From Protofrankia sp. CiT1 (GTDB lineage Bacteria; Actinomycetota; Actinomycetes; Frankiales; Frankiaceae): 50,950 nucleotides of DNA. Under the pieces are notes generated by a model that was not told the origin of the DNA, did no database searches, and saw nothing but the letters and a program-made list of their open reading frames with translations. How positions within the stretch are numbered: the stretch's first letter is position 1; every line of letters starts with the position of its first letter. Location of the stretch: positions 1 through 50,950 of the forward strand of contig NZ_CAKJTL010000085.1 of the NCBI RefSeq assembly GCF_917627385.1, written 5' to 3'. Positions 898 to 8,742 of the stretch are shown piece after piece. A program made the position numbers and the translations under genes.

Positions 898-2259
898 TCA
901 GATGGGCGCGTGTCGGATCCGCTGCGCGAGCCGGGCGGCGCCCGGGACCTTGCGGCGCTGGTACAGGGCGAGCGTGGGGCCGATGGAGGTGAGCGCTGAT
1001 CGGGTGCGCGCCGAGGCCATGCCTTCTGCTAGGTCCAGTGCATTGTTCCAGGACGCGATGGCCTCGTCGGAGCGTGCTTGGGCGGCGAGGCAGTCGCCAA
1101 GATCCATGTGGGTGAGCAGGTGGACACGCGGGAACGCCTTCTGGTCCCACGAGGTGAACGCGGCCCGGTGCCTCAGCTCGGTGCCGCGATGGTCGCCGAG
1201 CTCGGTGAGGGTCCGGGCGGTGTGAGAGTCGACAGTCCCGGCGGCTGGTCCCATCAGCAGGGAGTAGCTCGGCTGCCGGTCACCGCCGCGGGTGAGGGCA
1301 TCTTCAGCGGCCAGAAGCGCCCGCGCGGCGGAGGGCTTGTCACCGAGGGCGGCTTGGGCTCGGGCGTGGGTGATGTGCAGAAGCGCTTCGGTCGCACCGT
1401 CGGCGTGGCCCTGAGCGCGCCTGAGGGCGGCTTGGATGAGGTCACGGCTGTGCTGGTGCTGGTCCAGGCTGAGGGCTTGGTGGGCAACGGCGCGCATCAT
1501 CCAGGCGGCGTGCGCGTCGGGGTCGGCTTCGACGGCGAGCTGGAACCCGAGCATGTAGTACCGCTGGGCTGCCCCTTCCTCACCGAGGTCATGGTGTTTC
1601 CAGCCCAGCAGCCACGCCAGTTCGGCCACGGCAGCGTAGGCGTCGCCACGGACGGTGCCGCTGGCGAACCGTCCGATCAGCAGCGGAGCGGCGGTGTCGG
1701 CGAAGTAGGTCGCGACGGTGGACAGTCCGTGCCCGCCGCCGAGAACTTCGTCGGCCGCACCGAATGCCCCTGTGATGTGCCGAACCACCATGATCTCTGC
1801 GGCGCCGACCCGTGCATTTCCGGTCCGCGCCCGCAGTAGCCGCGAGACCGGTTCGGCGTCGTAGTTCAGCGGCATCGCCACATCGGAGGCCGTGTACACG
1901 GCGGCGGCCAGGTAGCTGCGGTGTTCGACATCGGCGCGGCCGAGGAGGGTGGCTGTCTCGATGGGCTGCGCTCCGGCCAACCGCGGCTCGCTGCTTGCAG
2001 CGAGGCCGAGTTCCGTGAGGGTCACCGGACGTCCGGTCCGGCGCGACAGAGCCTCGGCCAGGTAGAGGGCCGTGCGCTCGACGGGGGCGACGCCCGCGAC
2101 CCAGTGGGCGACCGCCGATTTGTTGGTCCGCAGCACTTCACCGTTCTCGGCCGCGACGCGGACTACGGCGCGCGCCACACCGTCGTAGCCCAGACCGGCC
2201 CCGGTGATGGCATCCCTGAGCCGATGATTCGGAGCGCGCTGGTCAGGTGCCCGTGGCAT
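898..2259 (-). CDS. HTH/TPR-like transcriptional regulator next to the lanthipeptide cluster
   Basis: This protein of about 453 residues has an N-terminal segment resembling an XRE-type helix-turn-helix (residues about 10-75, with the LRTNKSAVAHWVAG stretch as the likely recognition region). An Ala-rich all-helical body follows that looks like degenerate TPR repeats. Large actinomycete regulators of this shape are common near ribosomal peptide clusters and act as cytoplasmic DNA-binding proteins. The ATG at 2259 is chosen because GGTGGGA lies just upstream; an in-frame start 42 bases earlier would extend into the divergent promoter. It is transcribed away from the precursor gene, so it may control both directions, and it is followed closely by the Nudix gene. 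The ligand is unknown. Confidence 0.75.
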   Translation of the reverse strand: MPRAPDQRAPNHRLRDAITGAGLGYDGVARAVVRVAAENGEVLRTNKSAVAHWVAGVAPVERTALYLAEALSRRTGRPVTLTELGLAASSEPRLAGAQPIETATLLGRADVEHRSYLAAAVYTASDVAMPLNYDAEPVSRLLRARTGNARVGAAEIMVVRHITGAFGAADEVLGGGHGLSTVATYFADTAAPLLIGRFASGTVRGDAYAAVAELAWLLGWKHHDLGEEGAAQRYYMLGFQLAVEADPDAHAAWMMRAVAHQALSLDQHQHSRDLIQAALRRAQGHADGATEALLHITHARAQAALGDKPSAARALLAAEDALTRGGDRQPSYSLLMGPAAGTVDSHTARTLTELGDHRGTELRHRAAFTSWDQKAFPRVHLLTHMDLGDCLAAQARSDEAIASWNNALDLAEGMASARTRSALTSIGPTLALYQRRKVPGAARLAQRIRHAPI

Positions 2260-2417
2260 CAGATTCCCACCTGGATAAACCGAATAAACGCTCTGGAGCA
2301 CCTAAGACCATAGCCGGCTGAGGTCGCGCCATCGTTCACTGATGCCGGTTCAGATCGCCGCGACCACTCTTGCGGCGCGCCAAACGTCTAGGGGTTTCAA
2401 CGAGGGAGCAGAGCATC
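2260..2417. promoter_or_regulatory. Divergent promoter region between regulator and lanthipeptide precursor
   Basis: This 158-base gap separates two divergently read genes and must hold the promoters of both the regulator and the precursor operon. A purine-rich ribosome binding site (GAGGGAG, 2402-2408) lies nine bases ahead of the precursor ATG. No -35/-10 pair or operator could be assigned with confidence by eye. Confidence 0.55.
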
Positions 2418-2603
2418 ATGAGCACTCCGACGATCGACCAGCCGTCCACGGCGAGCCCCGCCGCGGACCTCTCGGCGGGCTTCGACCCGTTCAACCTCGA
2501 CATCAGCTTCATCGAGGACACCCCCGCCGCCGACACGATCTTGATGTGCAGCACGAACGACACGTGCGGGAGTTCCTGCCCGAGTGCCTGCACGACGTCC
2601 TAG
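2418..2603 (+). CDS. FxLD-family lanthipeptide precursor peptide
   Basis: This 61-residue peptide has an acidic leader of about 40 residues carrying FNLD at 25-28, the motif that names the FxLD precursor family, followed by a Cys/Ser/Thr-rich C-terminus. The tail has four Cys (44, 50, 54, 58) and about ten Ser/Thr, enough for several thioether rings. The leader is thought to recruit the LanB-type enzyme; the core would be dehydrated, cyclised and probably methylated at an Asp by the downstream proteins. Asp48 in the TNDTC stretch is the only Asp in the Cys-rich region, so it is the natural candidate. The ATG at 2418 has a well-spaced GAGGGAG site; an earlier in-frame ATG at 2370 lacks one. 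No protease or exporter gene lies nearby. Confidence 0.9.
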   Translation: MSTPTIDQPSTASPAADLSAGFDPFNLDISFIEDTPAADTILMCSTNDTCGSSCPSACTTS

Positions 2604-2673
2604 ATCCTCCCTATCGCGACCGCCAGTCCTTCAGGCCGCAGCCAGGCCCCTCCCGTTCATGGATCGGAGTGAG

Positions 2674-4734
2674 ATGACCCGTTCGCGGCGCAGGCAGTAC
2701 CGGCGCTTCGGTCCGCCGATGCTGAGGGCCACAGTGAATCTTGCCGCCCCTGAACTCCCTGCTTGGCCTGGGTCGGGTGCCTCGACGGATCAGTGGCGGT
2801 GCTGGCTGGGCCAAGTCTGGGCAGACGAGACGTTTCAGCGGACGGTCGCGGCTGCCAGCCCGGACCTGGCCCGCCAGGTTGCGGCGATCCTCTCCGGGCG
2901 GCAGGTGGAAGCTCGTCGGGCGCGCCGGGCGGCGCTGGCCGTCGCCCGGTATGCCATCCGCTACGCCTGCCGTTTCACGCCGTTCGGGCTGTTCGCCGGC
3001 GTCGCGCTCGCCGACTTTGGAGACCGGGCAGCGGTGCGGGTCGGGCAGGCACACGAGATCATCGATCGGGCCGATTCGGTAGCGGTGGAGGCGCTGGTCA
3101 GAGCAGGGGAGGCGGACGCGGCCGTGATGGCCGGCCGCGAGGTGTGCGTCAACACCCTGACCCGGGTGGCGGACGGCCGGGTGCACATACCGGCCGAGGG
3201 GACCGCGGAGTTCTCGATGGCGCTGACCGCGGCGGTGGCACTGGTTCTAGACGCAGCCACCGCACCCATCTCCTACACCACGTTGCTGGGGAAGCTCGCC
3301 GCCGAATTCCCCGAGAGCAGCGAGCCGCGCAGGGTCGGGCTGGTGACAGAGTTGCTGCGCACCGGTCTGCTGCGGTCGGGCCTGCGGGCCGCGGCGACCG
3401 TCGTCGATCCGACCGTCGTCCTTCCTACCGCAACGATGCCGGGCGGTGAGGTGCCGGGAACTGTGGCCCAGAGAGCATCAGACGTGCGGCTGGACGCGCA
3501 GGTGCGGTTGCCCGAATCGGTGGCGGTCGAAATGGAGACCGCCGCGACGGTGCTGGCCCGGCTGGCGACGTGCCCACGGGGGACCGGGCCGTGGCGCCGC
3601 TACCTGGAGGAGTTCGCCGACCGGTTCGGTGAGGGTACCGAAGTCGCCTTGCTGCGGCTGACCGACCCGGCGACGGGGCTGGGGATGCCGGACGGGTTCG
3701 GCGCGGCGTCGGAGCCGCCACGCCCGATGTCACGCCGCGACCGGCTGCTGCTGGACCTGGCCGGGGGCGCCGCGCTGGAGGGCCACCGGGAGGTGGTGCT
3801 GTCCGAGGCGATGATCGAAGAGCTGGAGGTGGCCGCAGGCGACCCGCCGACCGCTCTGGCTCCGCATTTCGAGGTGTGCGCGCAGGTCGAGGCGCCGTCA
3901 ATTCAAGCATTGGATCGGGGCGATTTCCGGCTGCGCCTGCACACCGTCTCACGGGCGGCCGGGACGATGACGGGCCGGTTCTGGCACCTGCTCCCCGAAG
4001 CCACCGAACTCGCCGGCCTGCCCACCGTGACGGCGGGGGCGAGACTGGCGCAGCTGTCGTTCCACCCGTCCCGGCTTGGGGCCGATCTGCTCACCCGGGC
4101 ACCGCAGGTGCTGCCGGAGGTGGTGAGCGTGGGCGAGTTCCGGGGAAGCGGCGAGCAGGTGCTGCGGCCGGCCGATCTCGCCGTCGGAATGGAGAACGGC
4201 CACCTGTATCTCGTGGTGGCCGCAACGGGCGTCCGGCTGGAACTGGTGACCCCGACGGCGATCAACTTCGTGTGGAACAACTTCACGCCGCCGCTGGTCC
4301 GGTTCCTGGCCGAACTCAGCCGCGCCGCGACTCCGCAGGTGACGTGGTTCGACTGGGGAGCCGCGTGGACGTTGCCATTCACCCCGGCGCTGCGCTATCG
4401 GCGGAGCCTCCTGGTCGCCGCCCGCTGGCAGCTGCGCGCCCGAACCCTGTCGGGCGCGAAAGCCCTCCTCGGCCGACAAGCGCCGTTACGCGCGTGGGCG
4501 GAGCAGTTGCACGCCTGGCGTGACCGCGCAGGGGTACCCGAGCGGGTCCTTCTCGCGCTGGACGACCAGCACCTTCTCCTTGACCTCACCCGGGACCTGG
4601 ACCTCGACCTGCTCCGCACCCACCTGGCCACGAATCCGGTCGCTGTGCTCTACGAAGCCCCGCCGCCGGATGCCGACGCCTGGATCGGCGGGAGGGCGCA
4701 CAGCATCGTCCAGGCGGTGGCGGCCCGCCCATGA
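2674..4734 (+). CDS. lanB: Short class I lantibiotic dehydratase (LanB N-terminal/glutamylation domain)
   Basis: This protein of about 686 residues resembles the N-terminal domain of LanB dehydratases, which use glutamyl-tRNA to activate Ser/Thr of the precursor. An early FTPFGLFAG stretch (about residues 100-108) is typical of the family, and much of the rest is Arg/Leu-rich as in actinomycete LanBs. Full-length LanB is near 1000 residues and ends in a SpaB_C elimination domain; here that domain is absent and instead appears at the N-terminus of the methyltransferase two genes on. The start at 2674 is preceded by GGAG; the ATG at 2659 is possible. Its stop overlaps the lanC start by ATGA, so the two are translationally coupled. 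Confidence 0.88.
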   Translation: MTRSRRRQYRRFGPPMLRATVNLAAPELPAWPGSGASTDQWRCWLGQVWADETFQRTVAAASPDLARQVAAILSGRQVEARRARRAALAVARYAIRYACRFTPFGLFAGVALADFGDRAAVRVGQAHEIIDRADSVAVEALVRAGEADAAVMAGREVCVNTLTRVADGRVHIPAEGTAEFSMALTAAVALVLDAATAPISYTTLLGKLAAEFPESSEPRRVGLVTELLRTGLLRSGLRAAATVVDPTVVLPTATMPGGEVPGTVAQRASDVRLDAQVRLPESVAVEMETAATVLARLATCPRGTGPWRRYLEEFADRFGEGTEVALLRLTDPATGLGMPDGFGAASEPPRPMSRRDRLLLDLAGGAALEGHREVVLSEAMIEELEVAAGDPPTALAPHFEVCAQVEAPSIQALDRGDFRLRLHTVSRAAGTMTGRFWHLLPEATELAGLPTVTAGARLAQLSFHPSRLGADLLTRAPQVLPEVVSVGEFRGSGEQVLRPADLAVGMENGHLYLVVAATGVRLELVTPTAINFVWNNFTPPLVRFLAELSRAATPQVTWFDWGAAWTLPFTPALRYRRSLLVAARWQLRARTLSGAKALLGRQAPLRAWAEQLHAWRDRAGVPERVLLALDDQHLLLDLTRDLDLDLLRTHLATNPVAVLYEAPPPDADAWIGGRAHSIVQAVAARP

Positions 4735-5795
4735 ACGCGACCGTGACGAAGCAGCCCAGGACACAGGCGTTGGCCGAACAGGGTCTGGGCGTGGCGCTGC
4801 TGCACCTCGAACGCGGTGACCTCGCGGCCACTCGCTCTTTGCTGACCGACGCGGTCGCCGGTGGCGTGAGCACCGGCGCGAACGCGAGCCTGTTCCACGG
4901 CGCCCCCGCGCTGGAATTCGTACTCGGCCGTACGGGCAACGCCGGGCAGGCGGTCACCTCCGCGGTTGATCGGATCGTGGCCGTTCGCCTGGCCGCTGCC
5001 GCCCGGCGGCGGAAGGAGGGGCGGCTGCCGGTGCTGGCGGAGTTCGACCTCATCGGGGGCTTGGCCGGGCTGGGAGCGGTGTTGCTGTCCCGCCCCCACG
5101 CGTCCCAGCTCCGAGAAGTACTGGCCCACCTGATCGGCCTGGCCGTCCCAGCCACCGCTGATCCGTCGGTGCCGGGATGGTGGTCCGCGGACGGGCCGGG
5201 GCACGAGGAGATTCCCGGCGGGCACAGCAATAACGGGATGGCCCACGGTGTCGCCGGGATTTTGTCGCTGTGTGCGCTGGCCGCTTGCCACGGTGTAGAC
5301 GTGCCCGGCCAGCGGCCGGCGATCGAGACGTTCTCCGACTGGTTGGAACTCCACGGCGGCTACTGGACGACCCGCGACCAGCTCACCACCACGAAACCGA
5401 CGATGCCGAGGGGACGGCCGTCGTGGTGCTACGGAGATCTCGGGATCGCCCGTGCCCGGCAGCTGGCCGCGCTCGCCCTTGGCGATCGGGCACGTGCCCG
5501 ATCGGCCGAGAACGCCGCGGTGGCCGCCCTGGACGATCCGGCCCGCATCGGCTTGATCACTGATGCGTCGCTGTGCCATGGCTGGGCGGGGCTGCTGGCC
5601 CTCACCCGCGCCATCGCCGCTGACAGCCCGGACCCCGGCCGGCTCTCCGGCCACGTGGACCAGCTCGCCGATCGTGTCGCCGCCGGGATCGACGACCTCG
5701 CCAAACCGGGGTTCTTGGAAGGCCGTGCTGGTGCGCGCCTGGCGCTGGAGGGGACCGACGTCATCGGCTGGACCCGCGCGTTGCTGATCACCTGA
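4731..5795 (+). CDS. lanC: Lanthionine synthetase C-like cyclase
   Basis: This 354-residue protein should catalyse addition of core Cys thiols to dehydrated Ser/Thr, forming (methyl)lanthionine rings. The zinc-site signature of LanC is present: Cys in WCYGD (about residue 232) and the Cys-His pair in CHGW (about 283-284). The NNGMAHGVAG segment (about 167-176) corresponds to the conserved Gly-rich helix turn of the toroid. It is slightly short for the family (about 400), mainly at the N-terminus. It starts inside the lanB stop codon and is followed after 40 bases by the methyltransferase gene, consistent with one operon. Confidence 0.9.
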   Translation: MNATVTKQPRTQALAEQGLGVALLHLERGDLAATRSLLTDAVAGGVSTGANASLFHGAPALEFVLGRTGNAGQAVTSAVDRIVAVRLAAAARRRKEGRLPVLAEFDLIGGLAGLGAVLLSRPHASQLREVLAHLIGLAVPATADPSVPGWWSADGPGHEEIPGGHSNNGMAHGVAGILSLCALAACHGVDVPGQRPAIETFSDWLELHGGYWTTRDQLTTTKPTMPRGRPSWCYGDLGIARARQLAALALGDRARARSAENAAVAALDDPARIGLITDASLCHGWAGLLALTRAIAADSPDPGRLSGHVDQLADRVAAGIDDLAKPGFLEGRAGARLALEGTDVIGWTRALLIT

Positions 5796-5835
5796 ACCCC
5801 GTTCACCTCGAGATTGCGCGGAGTGACCAGACACG

Positions 5836-7872
5836 ATGGACTGGAACGACGAGAACCTCCCGACCTCCGAGATTCCGCAGTGGTGGCACGCCACGATCTT
5901 CTTTCCCGGCAACACCGGAGTGGACGCGAAGGCCGCGACCGCGCTGGCGGAGAGGCTGGCGGGGCAGCGTTGGCACTTCCTGCGTAAGGAGGGAAAGCTC
6001 CGGCTGCGCACCACACACCCCGCTAACGAGATCCTCGACGACCTCGTCGCCGACCAGCTTGCCTCGCTCTGGATCGGCGGCGTGTACGAGCCCGAGACCG
6101 AGGCATTCGGCGGCCCGGCCGGCATGGCGCTGGCACACGACCTCTTCTGCGCCGACAGCCCGCTCGCCCTCACCGAGACCGGCGACCCGCGAGCACGGGA
6201 ACGGTGCGTCCTGCTGTTGTCCACGATGTACCGAGCCGCTGGCCTCGACCCCTTCGAGATCGGGGACGTGTGGGCGCGCCTGGCCACACTCCGCCCCCAG
6301 ATCGACCGACCCGACCCGGCTGGCCGCACCGCGGCCGTCGCCGGGATGCGGCGGCTGATGCACGCCGACGCCGCGCGGCGGGATACCCCAGAACCCGGCT
6401 GGGCTGAGCGCGTCGCCGCGTTCCACACTGCCGGGCGCGACCTGGCGCGGCTTGCCGCCGACGGCCGCCTGACACGGGGGCTGCGCGCCGTCCTCACCCA
6501 CCAGGCGATCTTCGCCCTCAACCGCGCCGGCACCTCACCGCACCAGCAGGCGGCACTCGCCTGGCTCGGCCACCACGCATCCTTCGACGTCGACACGACC
6601 ACCGCCGTTACCGCACTCACCGCCCCTAACCTCAACCGCGTGGAGTCCGCCATCATCACGACCACCGATCCCACCGAGCGCCGCGAAGCCCTGGTGACCG
6701 CGCTCACCGCTTCCGGGCATCTGCGCACTCCCGAGATCATCGCGGCTTTCCGTGCCGTCGAGCGGCACACCTTCATCCCTGACGCCGATATCGAGACCGC
6801 CTACGTCGACGACGCCGTGTCGATCAAGCGCGACGAGCACGGCGAGATGGTCTCCTGTATCTCCGCGCCGTCTATCGTGGCCACCCAGCTGGAGCAGCTC
6901 GGTGCGCGGCCCGGCCACAAGATCCTGGAGGCCGGGGCCGCTACCGGCTACAACGCCGCTCTCCTCGGCCGCCTGGTCACCCCGGGCGGGCATGTGTGGA
7001 CCGTGGACGTCGATGACGATCTCGTCCGCCATGCCGCCGCTTGCGTCGCGGCGTCAGGCGCCGACAACGTGTCGGTGCTGATGGCCGATGGGGCTGCGGG
7101 ACTCGCCGCCTACGGCCCCTACGACCGAATCCAGTTCACCGTGGGTGCCGGCGACGTCCCCCCGGGCGTTTTGGAGCAGCTGGCCCCTGGCGGACGGCTG
7201 GTCATCCCGATGCGGATCCGCGGCAGCATCTCTCGCAGCTTCGCCTTCGAGCGCGCCGATGACGACACCTGGAAGATCGTCTCGTGCGAGATGGCGTCGT
7301 TTGTGCCGCTGCGCAAGGGCGTGTGCGACGACGTCCACACCCTCATCCGCCACGAGGGAGCAGGCAACGTCAGGCTCGACACCTTCAGCGAGCAGCAGGT
7401 GGACCGGGAGGCGATGCGCACGATCCTCGACCAGCCGTCCCACAAGGTCTACACCGGCGTGAAGTTCCGGCAGGGGTCAGCCTGGCAGTGGCTCTACCTG
7501 TGGCTGGCATGTGTCCTACCCAACGGCCTGTCGCGAATGCCGGGCCGCCGGCCCGGCTTCACCCCGCACTTCGGCTGGGGCTCCATGGCCGCCCTGGACA
7601 GCGACAGTCTGGCCTACCTGACCGTTCGGGAAGGAGACGACAGCATCGGCCGGTACTGGGAGATCGGCGTCATCGGTCACGGCAGCGGCGCCGCAGCCCT
7701 CGCCGAACAGGTCTCGGCCGCGATCGCCGAGTGGGACCGCGACTACGGCAACGACGCGCCCGAGCCCGGCTACCGGATGGCCACCGCGGCGCACCGCGAC
7801 CTGCTCAAGGCGACGGACCCGCGATTCATCATCGACAAGCGCCTCAGTCGTCTCGTCGTCGACTGGCAGTAG
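5836..7872 (+). CDS. FxLD-system methyltransferase with N-terminal SpaB_C-like domain
   Basis: This 678-residue fusion has a thiopeptide-type/SpaB_C-like region at about residues 10-280 (starts with the PQWWHATIFF pattern) and a protein-L-isoaspartate methyltransferase-like region at about 300-500, with SAM motif I LEAGAATGYNAALL near 364-377. A C-terminal extension of about 170 residues ends the protein. In known class I clusters a related methyltransferase esterifies a core Asp, leading to aspartimide or isoaspartate. The N-terminal part probably supplies the glutamate-elimination activity missing from the short LanB, so one polypeptide would both finish dehydration and methylate. The fusion architecture is seen in the sequence; the division of labour is inference. 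Confidence 0.88.
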   Translation: MDWNDENLPTSEIPQWWHATIFFPGNTGVDAKAATALAERLAGQRWHFLRKEGKLRLRTTHPANEILDDLVADQLASLWIGGVYEPETEAFGGPAGMALAHDLFCADSPLALTETGDPRARERCVLLLSTMYRAAGLDPFEIGDVWARLATLRPQIDRPDPAGRTAAVAGMRRLMHADAARRDTPEPGWAERVAAFHTAGRDLARLAADGRLTRGLRAVLTHQAIFALNRAGTSPHQQAALAWLGHHASFDVDTTTAVTALTAPNLNRVESAIITTTDPTERREALVTALTASGHLRTPEIIAAFRAVERHTFIPDADIETAYVDDAVSIKRDEHGEMVSCISAPSIVATQLEQLGARPGHKILEAGAATGYNAALLGRLVTPGGHVWTVDVDDDLVRHAAACVAASGADNVSVLMADGAAGLAAYGPYDRIQFTVGAGDVPPGVLEQLAPGGRLVIPMRIRGSISRSFAFERADDDTWKIVSCEMASFVPLRKGVCDDVHTLIRHEGAGNVRLDTFSEQQVDREAMRTILDQPSHKVYTGVKFRQGSAWQWLYLWLACVLPNGLSRMPGRRPGFTPHFGWGSMAALDSDSLAYLTVREGDDSIGRYWEIGVIGHGSGAAALAEQVSAAIAEWDRDYGNDAPEPGYRMATAAHRDLLKATDPRFIIDKRLSRLVVDWQ

Positions 7873-7878
7873 AAGACA

Positions 7879-8742
7879 GTGAGCGCGATGAATCCCACGA
7901 TCACCGACCGCATCCCGCCGGTCTGCCGGACCAAGCCGCCCGGGACTTCGCTGGCGACCCGCATCGCCGACCTCACCGCGCTGACCGTCGAACTCCCAGG
8001 GGCGGACCACCACGACCAGGTGGCCCGCGCCTGCGGGGTCCTCAACTTCGCCGCCCTCATCGCCTCCGACGTCGGCCTGCCCGGCCTTGCCGCCGACCTG
8101 TGCTGGAAGCAGCACGGCATCTTTGCCGAAACCGAACATCTGGCGCCGGACATCGCCGTGATGGGGTTGATGCCGATCGTGAACATTGCGCGGCTCCTGA
8201 TCCGCGAGGGCGATGGCAACGCCGCCTACGACGTCCTCCACCGGCTGTACCGCGCCGCCCAAGACCGCGGCGCCACCAGCATCCGCGACCGCGACGTCGA
8301 TCTCGCCCCGTGGATCCTCACCACCGGCCACCACCAGAAGATCTGCACCGAACTGTGGATCACCCTGCTCATCGACGGTGCCAGAGCCCTCGCCCGACAG
8401 GGCCGTTGGACCGAAGCTAGCCAAGCCATGGCCGCCCACCGAGGCATCGGCAACCGGCTTCTGGACGGTCGCCAAGTCAAAATCATGGCCCTACTGGAGG
8501 AAGGCCGCACCGACGAGGCCATCGCGACGATCGACTCCACCACACCGACCGAACCTTGGGAGAAGACTGTCGCCGCACTTCTACGCCAAGCCATTCAGCC
8601 GGGCTCCCCGGCCCGGAAGGGACTGGACTGTACGGTGGAGGAGACGCTCGCGCTGATGAGACAGCCTGACCCGCACGCCCCGAACTTGACCCATCCTTCA
8701 CGGCTTTCGCCGCCCAAGCCCTCTAGCCGAGAAAACCGTTGA
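7879..8742 (+). CDS. Helical accessory protein of the lanthipeptide operon, function unknown
   Basis: This 287-residue protein has no catalytic motif that I recognise. It is Ala/Leu-rich and predicted helical, with repeat-like segments around residues 50-120 and 150-220 that suggest a TPR-type scaffold resembling the C-terminal half of the upstream regulator. It starts (GTG 7879, or ATG 7888) six bases after the methyltransferase stop, so it belongs to the operon. Its last 20 bases overlap the 3' end of the convergent GGDEF/EAL gene. A role as regulator partner or precursor chaperone is possible, but nothing in the sequence decides this. Confidence 0.7.
   Translation: MSAMNPTITDRIPPVCRTKPPGTSLATRIADLTALTVELPGADHHDQVARACGVLNFAALIASDVGLPGLAADLCWKQHGIFAETEHLAPDIAVMGLMPIVNIARLLIREGDGNAAYDVLHRLYRAAQDRGATSIRDRDVDLAPWILTTGHHQKICTELWITLLIDGARALARQGRWTEASQAMAAHRGIGNRLLDGRQVKIMALLEEGRTDEAIATIDSTTPTEPWEKTVAALLRQAIQPGSPARKGLDCTVEETLALMRQPDPHAPNLTHPSRLSPPKPSSRENR

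Follow-up and report, generated by a model that had tools for sequence, protein, structure and literature searches.

Which enzyme completes dehydration in a lanthipeptide cluster whose dehydratase LanB ends without an elimination domain, and what does it mean that the only candidate in the cluster is fused to a methyltransferase? We address this question on a stretch of 50,950 nucleotides from Protofrankia sp. CiT1 (positions 1 to 50,950 of contig NZ_CAKJTL010000085.1), hereafter the window, in which five co-directional genes encode the precursor LanA, a LanB restricted to its N-terminal part, LanC, a lyase-methyltransferase fusion and a TPR protein (Table 1). We consider it highly probable that the locus is an FxLD cluster of class I whose dehydratase is split, in which glutamylation, syn-elimination by the fusion protein and ring formation by LanC would be followed by methylation of Asp48.

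Architecture of the split dehydratase

The assignment of the locus to the FxLD family agrees with profile searches, in which LanA scores 54.1 bits against the FxLD family lanthipeptide model TIGR04363 (cut-off 30). Residues T40, C44, T46, D48, C50, S53, C54, C58 and T60 are identical across the window-clade LanAs compared, and the residue after Asp48 is Thr, Asn or Gly within the clade, Thr being that of the window's own precursor.

The match of LanB to PF04738, the lantibiotic dehydratase N-terminal model, runs to the final position of the profile (649/649), and the elimination domain PF14028, sought in the window LanB by profile search, was not found, in keeping with the original prediction that this LanB has no C-terminal elimination domain. 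The LanB stop overlaps the LanC start (ATGA, 4731-4734), and therefore no lyase remnant is left between the two genes. At its other end LanB most likely begins at 2674, a small correction to the original account; the invariance of M1, T2, R3 and R5 in 18 homologues supports this start. The AlphaFold2 model of LanB was poor (pLDDT 52) and permits no docking argument.

The fusion protein (5836-7872; 678 aa) unites a lyase and a PIMT-like methyltransferase on one ORF, with both domains detected by profile and both folds recovered. Residues 34-244 match PF14028 (E 1.4e-16) and residues 42-245 match TIGR03891, followed at residues 280-677 by a match to TIGR04364, "methyltransferase, FxLD system" (412 bits, cut-off 320); a SpaB_C-like domain at the N-terminus of an isoaspartate-type methyltransferase is what had been described from the letters of the sequence. 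In an AlphaFold2 model derived from 27 homologues (mean pLDDT 79.6), residues 7-253 align with the elimination domain of NisB (6m7y 725-990; Z 12.3, rmsd 3.3 A over 206 residues) and residues 278-499 with L-isoaspartyl methyltransferases (Z 27), among which the T. maritima PIMT 1dl5 aligns over 313 residues and reaches fusion residue 678. The structural comparison suggested for the N-terminus has therefore returned a fold of the expected kind. It also corrects the earlier domain limits of 1-280, placing the end of the lyase near residue 251, ahead of a low-confidence linker to about residue 276 and a methyltransferase domain of about 400 aa. The relationship to NisB emerged by structural comparison; a phmmer search of PDB sequences with the lyase domain alone gave chance matches only.

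Table 1. Features of the lanthipeptide locus and its divergent neighbour, in window coordinates
Feature	Position	Strand	Basis
NsdA-family TPR-like regulator	898..2301	-	NF053720, 311 bits; divergent from precursor
FxLD precursor LanA, 61 aa	2418..2603	+	TIGR04363; leader motif FNLD, core ...TILMCSTNDTCGSSCPSACTTS
LanB glutamylation half, 686 aa, without elimination domain	2674..4734	+	PF04738 present, PF14028 absent
LanC cyclase	4731..5795	+	PF05147, E 2.3e-24; WCYGD, CHGWAG and MAHGVAG motifs present
Glutamyl lyase domain, predicted syn type, fusion residues 1-251	5836..6588	+	PF14028, TIGR03891, NisB fold, residue signature
Interdomain linker, fusion residues 252-276	6589..6663	+	AlphaFold2 model, pLDDT below 50
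PIMT-like aspartyl O-methyltransferase domain with C-terminal extension (LanSA / FxLD type)	6664..7872	+	TIGR04364, PIMT fold
TPR protein, role unassigned, conserved in operon	7879..8742	+	TPR models; cut short in window

The TPR protein shares 93% identity over residues 1-267 with a 367-aa protein of locus L052 and diverges afterwards. A 93.6% identical DNA block common to the window and Frankia sp. AgB1.9 (window 1313-8673) stops within the TPR gene, and a convergent PAS-GGDEF-EAL gene comes after the shortened TPR gene (window 8673-8742). Given this truncated gene, the window copy of the cluster could be in early decay, although the remaining genes are intact. The divergent NsdA-family gene possibly regulates the cluster; a close homologue occupies the same place in loci L052, L066 and L070, and none was found in most of the other loci searched.

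Lyase type and the search for a second lyase

Residues were compared in NisB numbering: 64 lyases located outside LanB were aligned with those of LanBs and then mapped through the NisB chain alignment. Tyr776, Arg786, Glu823 and Arg826 of NisB correspond in the window lyase to Lys51, Arg58, Glu87 and Ala90, which together with N229 and R230 make up the residues listed for the domain, and the column of the catalytic His961 holds a hydrophobic residue. Sarksian and co-workers give the replacement of Tyr by Lys, combined with that of Arg826 by a hydrophobic residue, as the mark of syn-lyases (PMC9486935, PMC9011353); the His is also reported missing from SptBb (PMC9011353, PMC9486935), an enzyme shown experimentally to make (E)-Dhb (PMC9890492). 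The window lyase carries this published signature, including the CoiSA-type combination of Lys at the Tyr776 position, a residue other than Arg at Arg826 and no His961, CoiSA and SptBb being compared here through their published residue descriptions. The product had originally been regarded as not predictable in detail; the predicted syn type, overlooked at that stage, makes it partly predictable.

The loss of the NisB catalytic His and of Arg826 could also indicate that the fused lyase is catalytically idle and serves only as a dock between the methyltransferase and either LanB or the modified peptide. We judge this very improbable, since the same residues are missing from SptBb and CoiSA, active syn-lyases in which elimination requires the conserved Lys, since Lys51, Arg58 and Glu87 are invariant among 27 homologues, and since the cluster would then have no eliminase. 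A different doubt concerns LanB itself. Peptide aminoacyl-tRNA ligases (PEARLs) resemble LanB but lack a lyase domain, and the short LanB, which is alike in this respect, might extend the C-terminus of the precursor instead of transferring glutamate. Its neighbours, namely an FxLD precursor rich in Cys, Ser and Thr, a LanC and a glutamyl lyase, make such a role exceedingly improbable, as does the alignment and joint tree of its N-domain with those of FxLD LanBs, in which it has a long branch and which included no PEARLs.

If LanB glutamylates the precursor and the fused lyase is active, a full-length LanB elsewhere could still supply anti-elimination in trans and leave the fused lyase to serve one residue only, as in coi, where CoiB and CoiSA divide the work (PMC9486935). 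The window genome offers a candidate in a second lanthipeptide cluster on contig C122, which encodes a 1035-aa full-length LanB, and a published survey predicts all full-length LanBs to be anti-lyases (PMC9486935). The genome contains three PF14028 domains, namely the fused one, which is the only one on its contig (C85), a stand-alone syn-type lyase on C122 and, on that contig too, the lyase within the full-length LanB. This last domain is degenerate: its HLRLR motif reads YLAVL, with loss of the glutamyl-binding arginines, and the Glu of its PE motif is lost as well. An intact anti-lyase sought across the window genome was not found. Six of the 19 genomes with a window-type cluster (N. lactucae, Planomonospora sp., S. 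canum, M. catharanthi, Saccharopolyspora sp. NFXS83 and Microtetraspora sp.) hold exactly one PF14028 domain, the fused one, and in each of them the short LanB is the only strong match to PF04738; two of the six (G233, G117) are listed as 99% complete. On these grounds rescue by another LanB was rejected for the window genome and for the six relatives, and we regard it as quite improbable overall. A competent full-length LanB able to process this precursor, which would have counted against the original prediction, has thus not come to light.

The C122 LanB (L015 6586-9693, minus strand) forms a single clade of 11 full-length LanBs with those of L126, L131, L133, L138, L148 and L151-L155. Their own lyases are without the HLRLR arginines and the PE Glu, mostly with equivalents of Arg826 and His961, and each of these LanBs adjoins a syn-type lyase unfused to a methyltransferase. 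At L127 (4706-6847) and L148 (7057-9522, minus strand), a syn-type lyase shares an open frame with a TPR protein, not with a methyltransferase.

Conservation and origin of the split form

In named genomes a scan returned 24 related loci with best-segment identities of 62-94%, the closest in Frankia sp. AgB1.9 (94%) and Actinocorallia (80%) and further ones in Nonomuraea, Streptosporangium, Sphaerisporangium, Microbispora, Actinomadura, Saccharopolyspora, Streptoalloteichus and others. The operon, with LanA, the N-terminal LanB, LanC, the lyase-methyltransferase fusion and the TPR gene in this order, recurs in 20 further loci from genera that include Frankia, Actinocorallia, Saccharopolyspora, Actinomadura, Microbispora, Nonomuraea and Streptosporangium, and is therefore not an assembly artefact. 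LanB measures about 675-687 aa in the readable clusters without a LanB lyase; that lyase is absent from all window-clade loci with a readable LanB (21/21), and a lyase is fused to the methyltransferase in all those classified (21/21). At locus L059 an interruption breaks the LanB frame close to the N-terminus. The 298 Streptomycetaceae genomes searched include 14 with a LanB that shares 58-64% identity with that of the window; ten of these LanBs were read, all ending before any lyase domain, and the start of a syn-type lyase was seen in the short flank of nine. In the window, as in about 30 other actinomycetes, the cluster has no eliminating enzyme besides the fused lyase. Between the window and L052, dN is 0.02-0.04 and dS 0.11-0.16 for every gene (0.042 and 0.141, respectively, for the lyase domain), and all cluster genes, lyase included, are under purifying selection in this comparison.

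The coi-like fusions read, from 17 loci, are accompanied by a full-length LanB. In the lyase tree the window clade groups with these fusions (97/84) and the lyases of L129 and L137 are placed elsewhere, a topology that suggests two losses of the LanB lyase. The methyltransferase tree sets the window clade beside the coi-like enzymes (84/93), and together with the LanB tree it would allow a single origin of the split form. At L129 (5002-10455) and L137 (4979-10540), which form a second and distinct lineage, a LanB without a lyase adjoins a lyase-methyltransferase fusion about 40% identical to that of the window. L145 was at one point taken for another LanB without a lyase; its lyase was found in an overlapping frame, probably through a frameshift, and the locus was left out of the counts.

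Known systems and the proposed pathway

Elimination-domain proteins fused to PIMT-family methyltransferases were reportedly noted by Walker in 2020. The lyase-methyltransferase fusion CoiSA of S. coelicolor has been characterised in detail (PMC9011353, PMC9486935); it sets the stereochemistry of one ring, and methyltransferase-fused syn-lyases are placed by the published survey in clusters that also hold a full-length LanB (PMC9486935). The fusion itself is thus already known, and what sets this locus apart from the clusters of that description is a fused lyase as the sole lyase beside a LanB without one.

The coi cluster of Streptomyces coelicolor A3(2) resembles the window locus in its class I precursor, in a syn-type lyase fused to a PIMT-like methyltransferase, with Lys for Tyr and a hydrophobic residue for Arg826, and in an extra gene of unassigned role (CoiH, possibly the TPR gene). 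It differs in that it contains a full-length LanB with an active anti-lyase, whereas the window cluster has no LanB with a lyase of its own, and in that CoiSA sets only one of three MeLan residues. SapT (spt; SptBa and SptBb; PMC9011353, PMC9890492) shares the division of glutamylation and elimination between separate polypeptides and a sole lyase of syn type through which all dehydration passes, but SptBb stands alone whereas the window lyase is fused to an aspartyl methyltransferase. The window locus may be described as SapT-like logic built with a CoiSA-like enzyme. The olv system (OlvSA lanthimiditide; Acedo 2019; PMC13001092) shares with the window locus this kind of aspartyl methyltransferase, an N-terminal Cys, which CoiA1 lacks, and, within a TxDxC ring, a conserved Asp; it differs in that OlvSA lacks a lyase domain and that its dehydratase, OlvB, is canonical. 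The window shows the combination that defines lanthimiditides (PMC10787088), with the conserved Asp, here the invariant Asp48, inside a TxDxC ring and over 100 aa of C-terminal extension on the PIMT homologue, although the lanthimiditide Asp typically precedes Gly whereas Asp48 precedes Thr.

Gene content, architecture, fold, residue signature and conservation, with the absence of a second competent lyase from the cluster and from several genomes, are the observations on which the proposed pathway builds; its reactions and their order are modelled on characterised homologues. The 686-aa LanB would transfer glutamate from Glu-tRNA onto Ser and Thr residues of the precursor, and the N-terminal lyase domain of the fusion would eliminate it at every activated residue; as a predicted syn-lyase, this domain would turn Thr into (E)-Dhb and Ser into Dha. 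LanC would then close the rings, likely T40-C44, T46-C50, S53-C58 and C54-T60 by position with OlvA and CoiA1, and the C-terminal methyltransferase would methylate Asp48 within the T46-C50 ring, leading to an aspartimide or isoaspartate. Any MeLan formed from (E)-Dhb would be D-allo-L. The ring pattern and this stereochemistry are predictions, as is the requirement that LanC accept (E)-Dhb at every position.

The original prediction had a single polypeptide finish dehydration and then methylate, linking both steps on one leader-bound substrate. The split dehydratase and the fusion of lyase to methyltransferase stand, and consecutive steps on a leader-bound substrate have become unlikely: the homologue OlvSA methylates its peptide only once LanC has formed the rings, with no need for the leader (PMC13001092), so the LanC step probably lies between the two activities of the fusion, and the isolated CoiSA lyase domain works without the methyltransferase. 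In lasso peptides, Thr following Asp steers aspartimide hydrolysis back to Asp; by analogy, a lasting aspartimide is possible on the window peptide.

Once the lyase of CoiB itself was inactivated, the CoiSA lyase domain cleared glutamate from all three Thr (PMC9486935), and CoiC was unable to cyclise the resulting all-syn CoiA1 (PMC9486935); the LanC of the window cluster must therefore differ. No LanC alignment column separating the window clade from the others passed the threshold used, and we therefore claim no residue basis for the use of (E)-Dhb. We lean slightly towards the broader reading of a conserved family in which the anti-lyase has been lost, the fused syn-lyase performs all dehydration, every MeLan is D-allo-L and LanC is adapted to (E)-Dhb where CoiC fails. 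A conserved clade without an anti-lyase is a natural version of the CoiB lyase mutant that does not cyclise in the laboratory. With it one could test directly how LanC enzymes accept (E)-Dhb, whether a lanthipeptide whose MeLan rings are all of the allo type is produced and has activity, and why a lyase and an aspartyl methyltransferase share one chain despite the intervening cyclase step.
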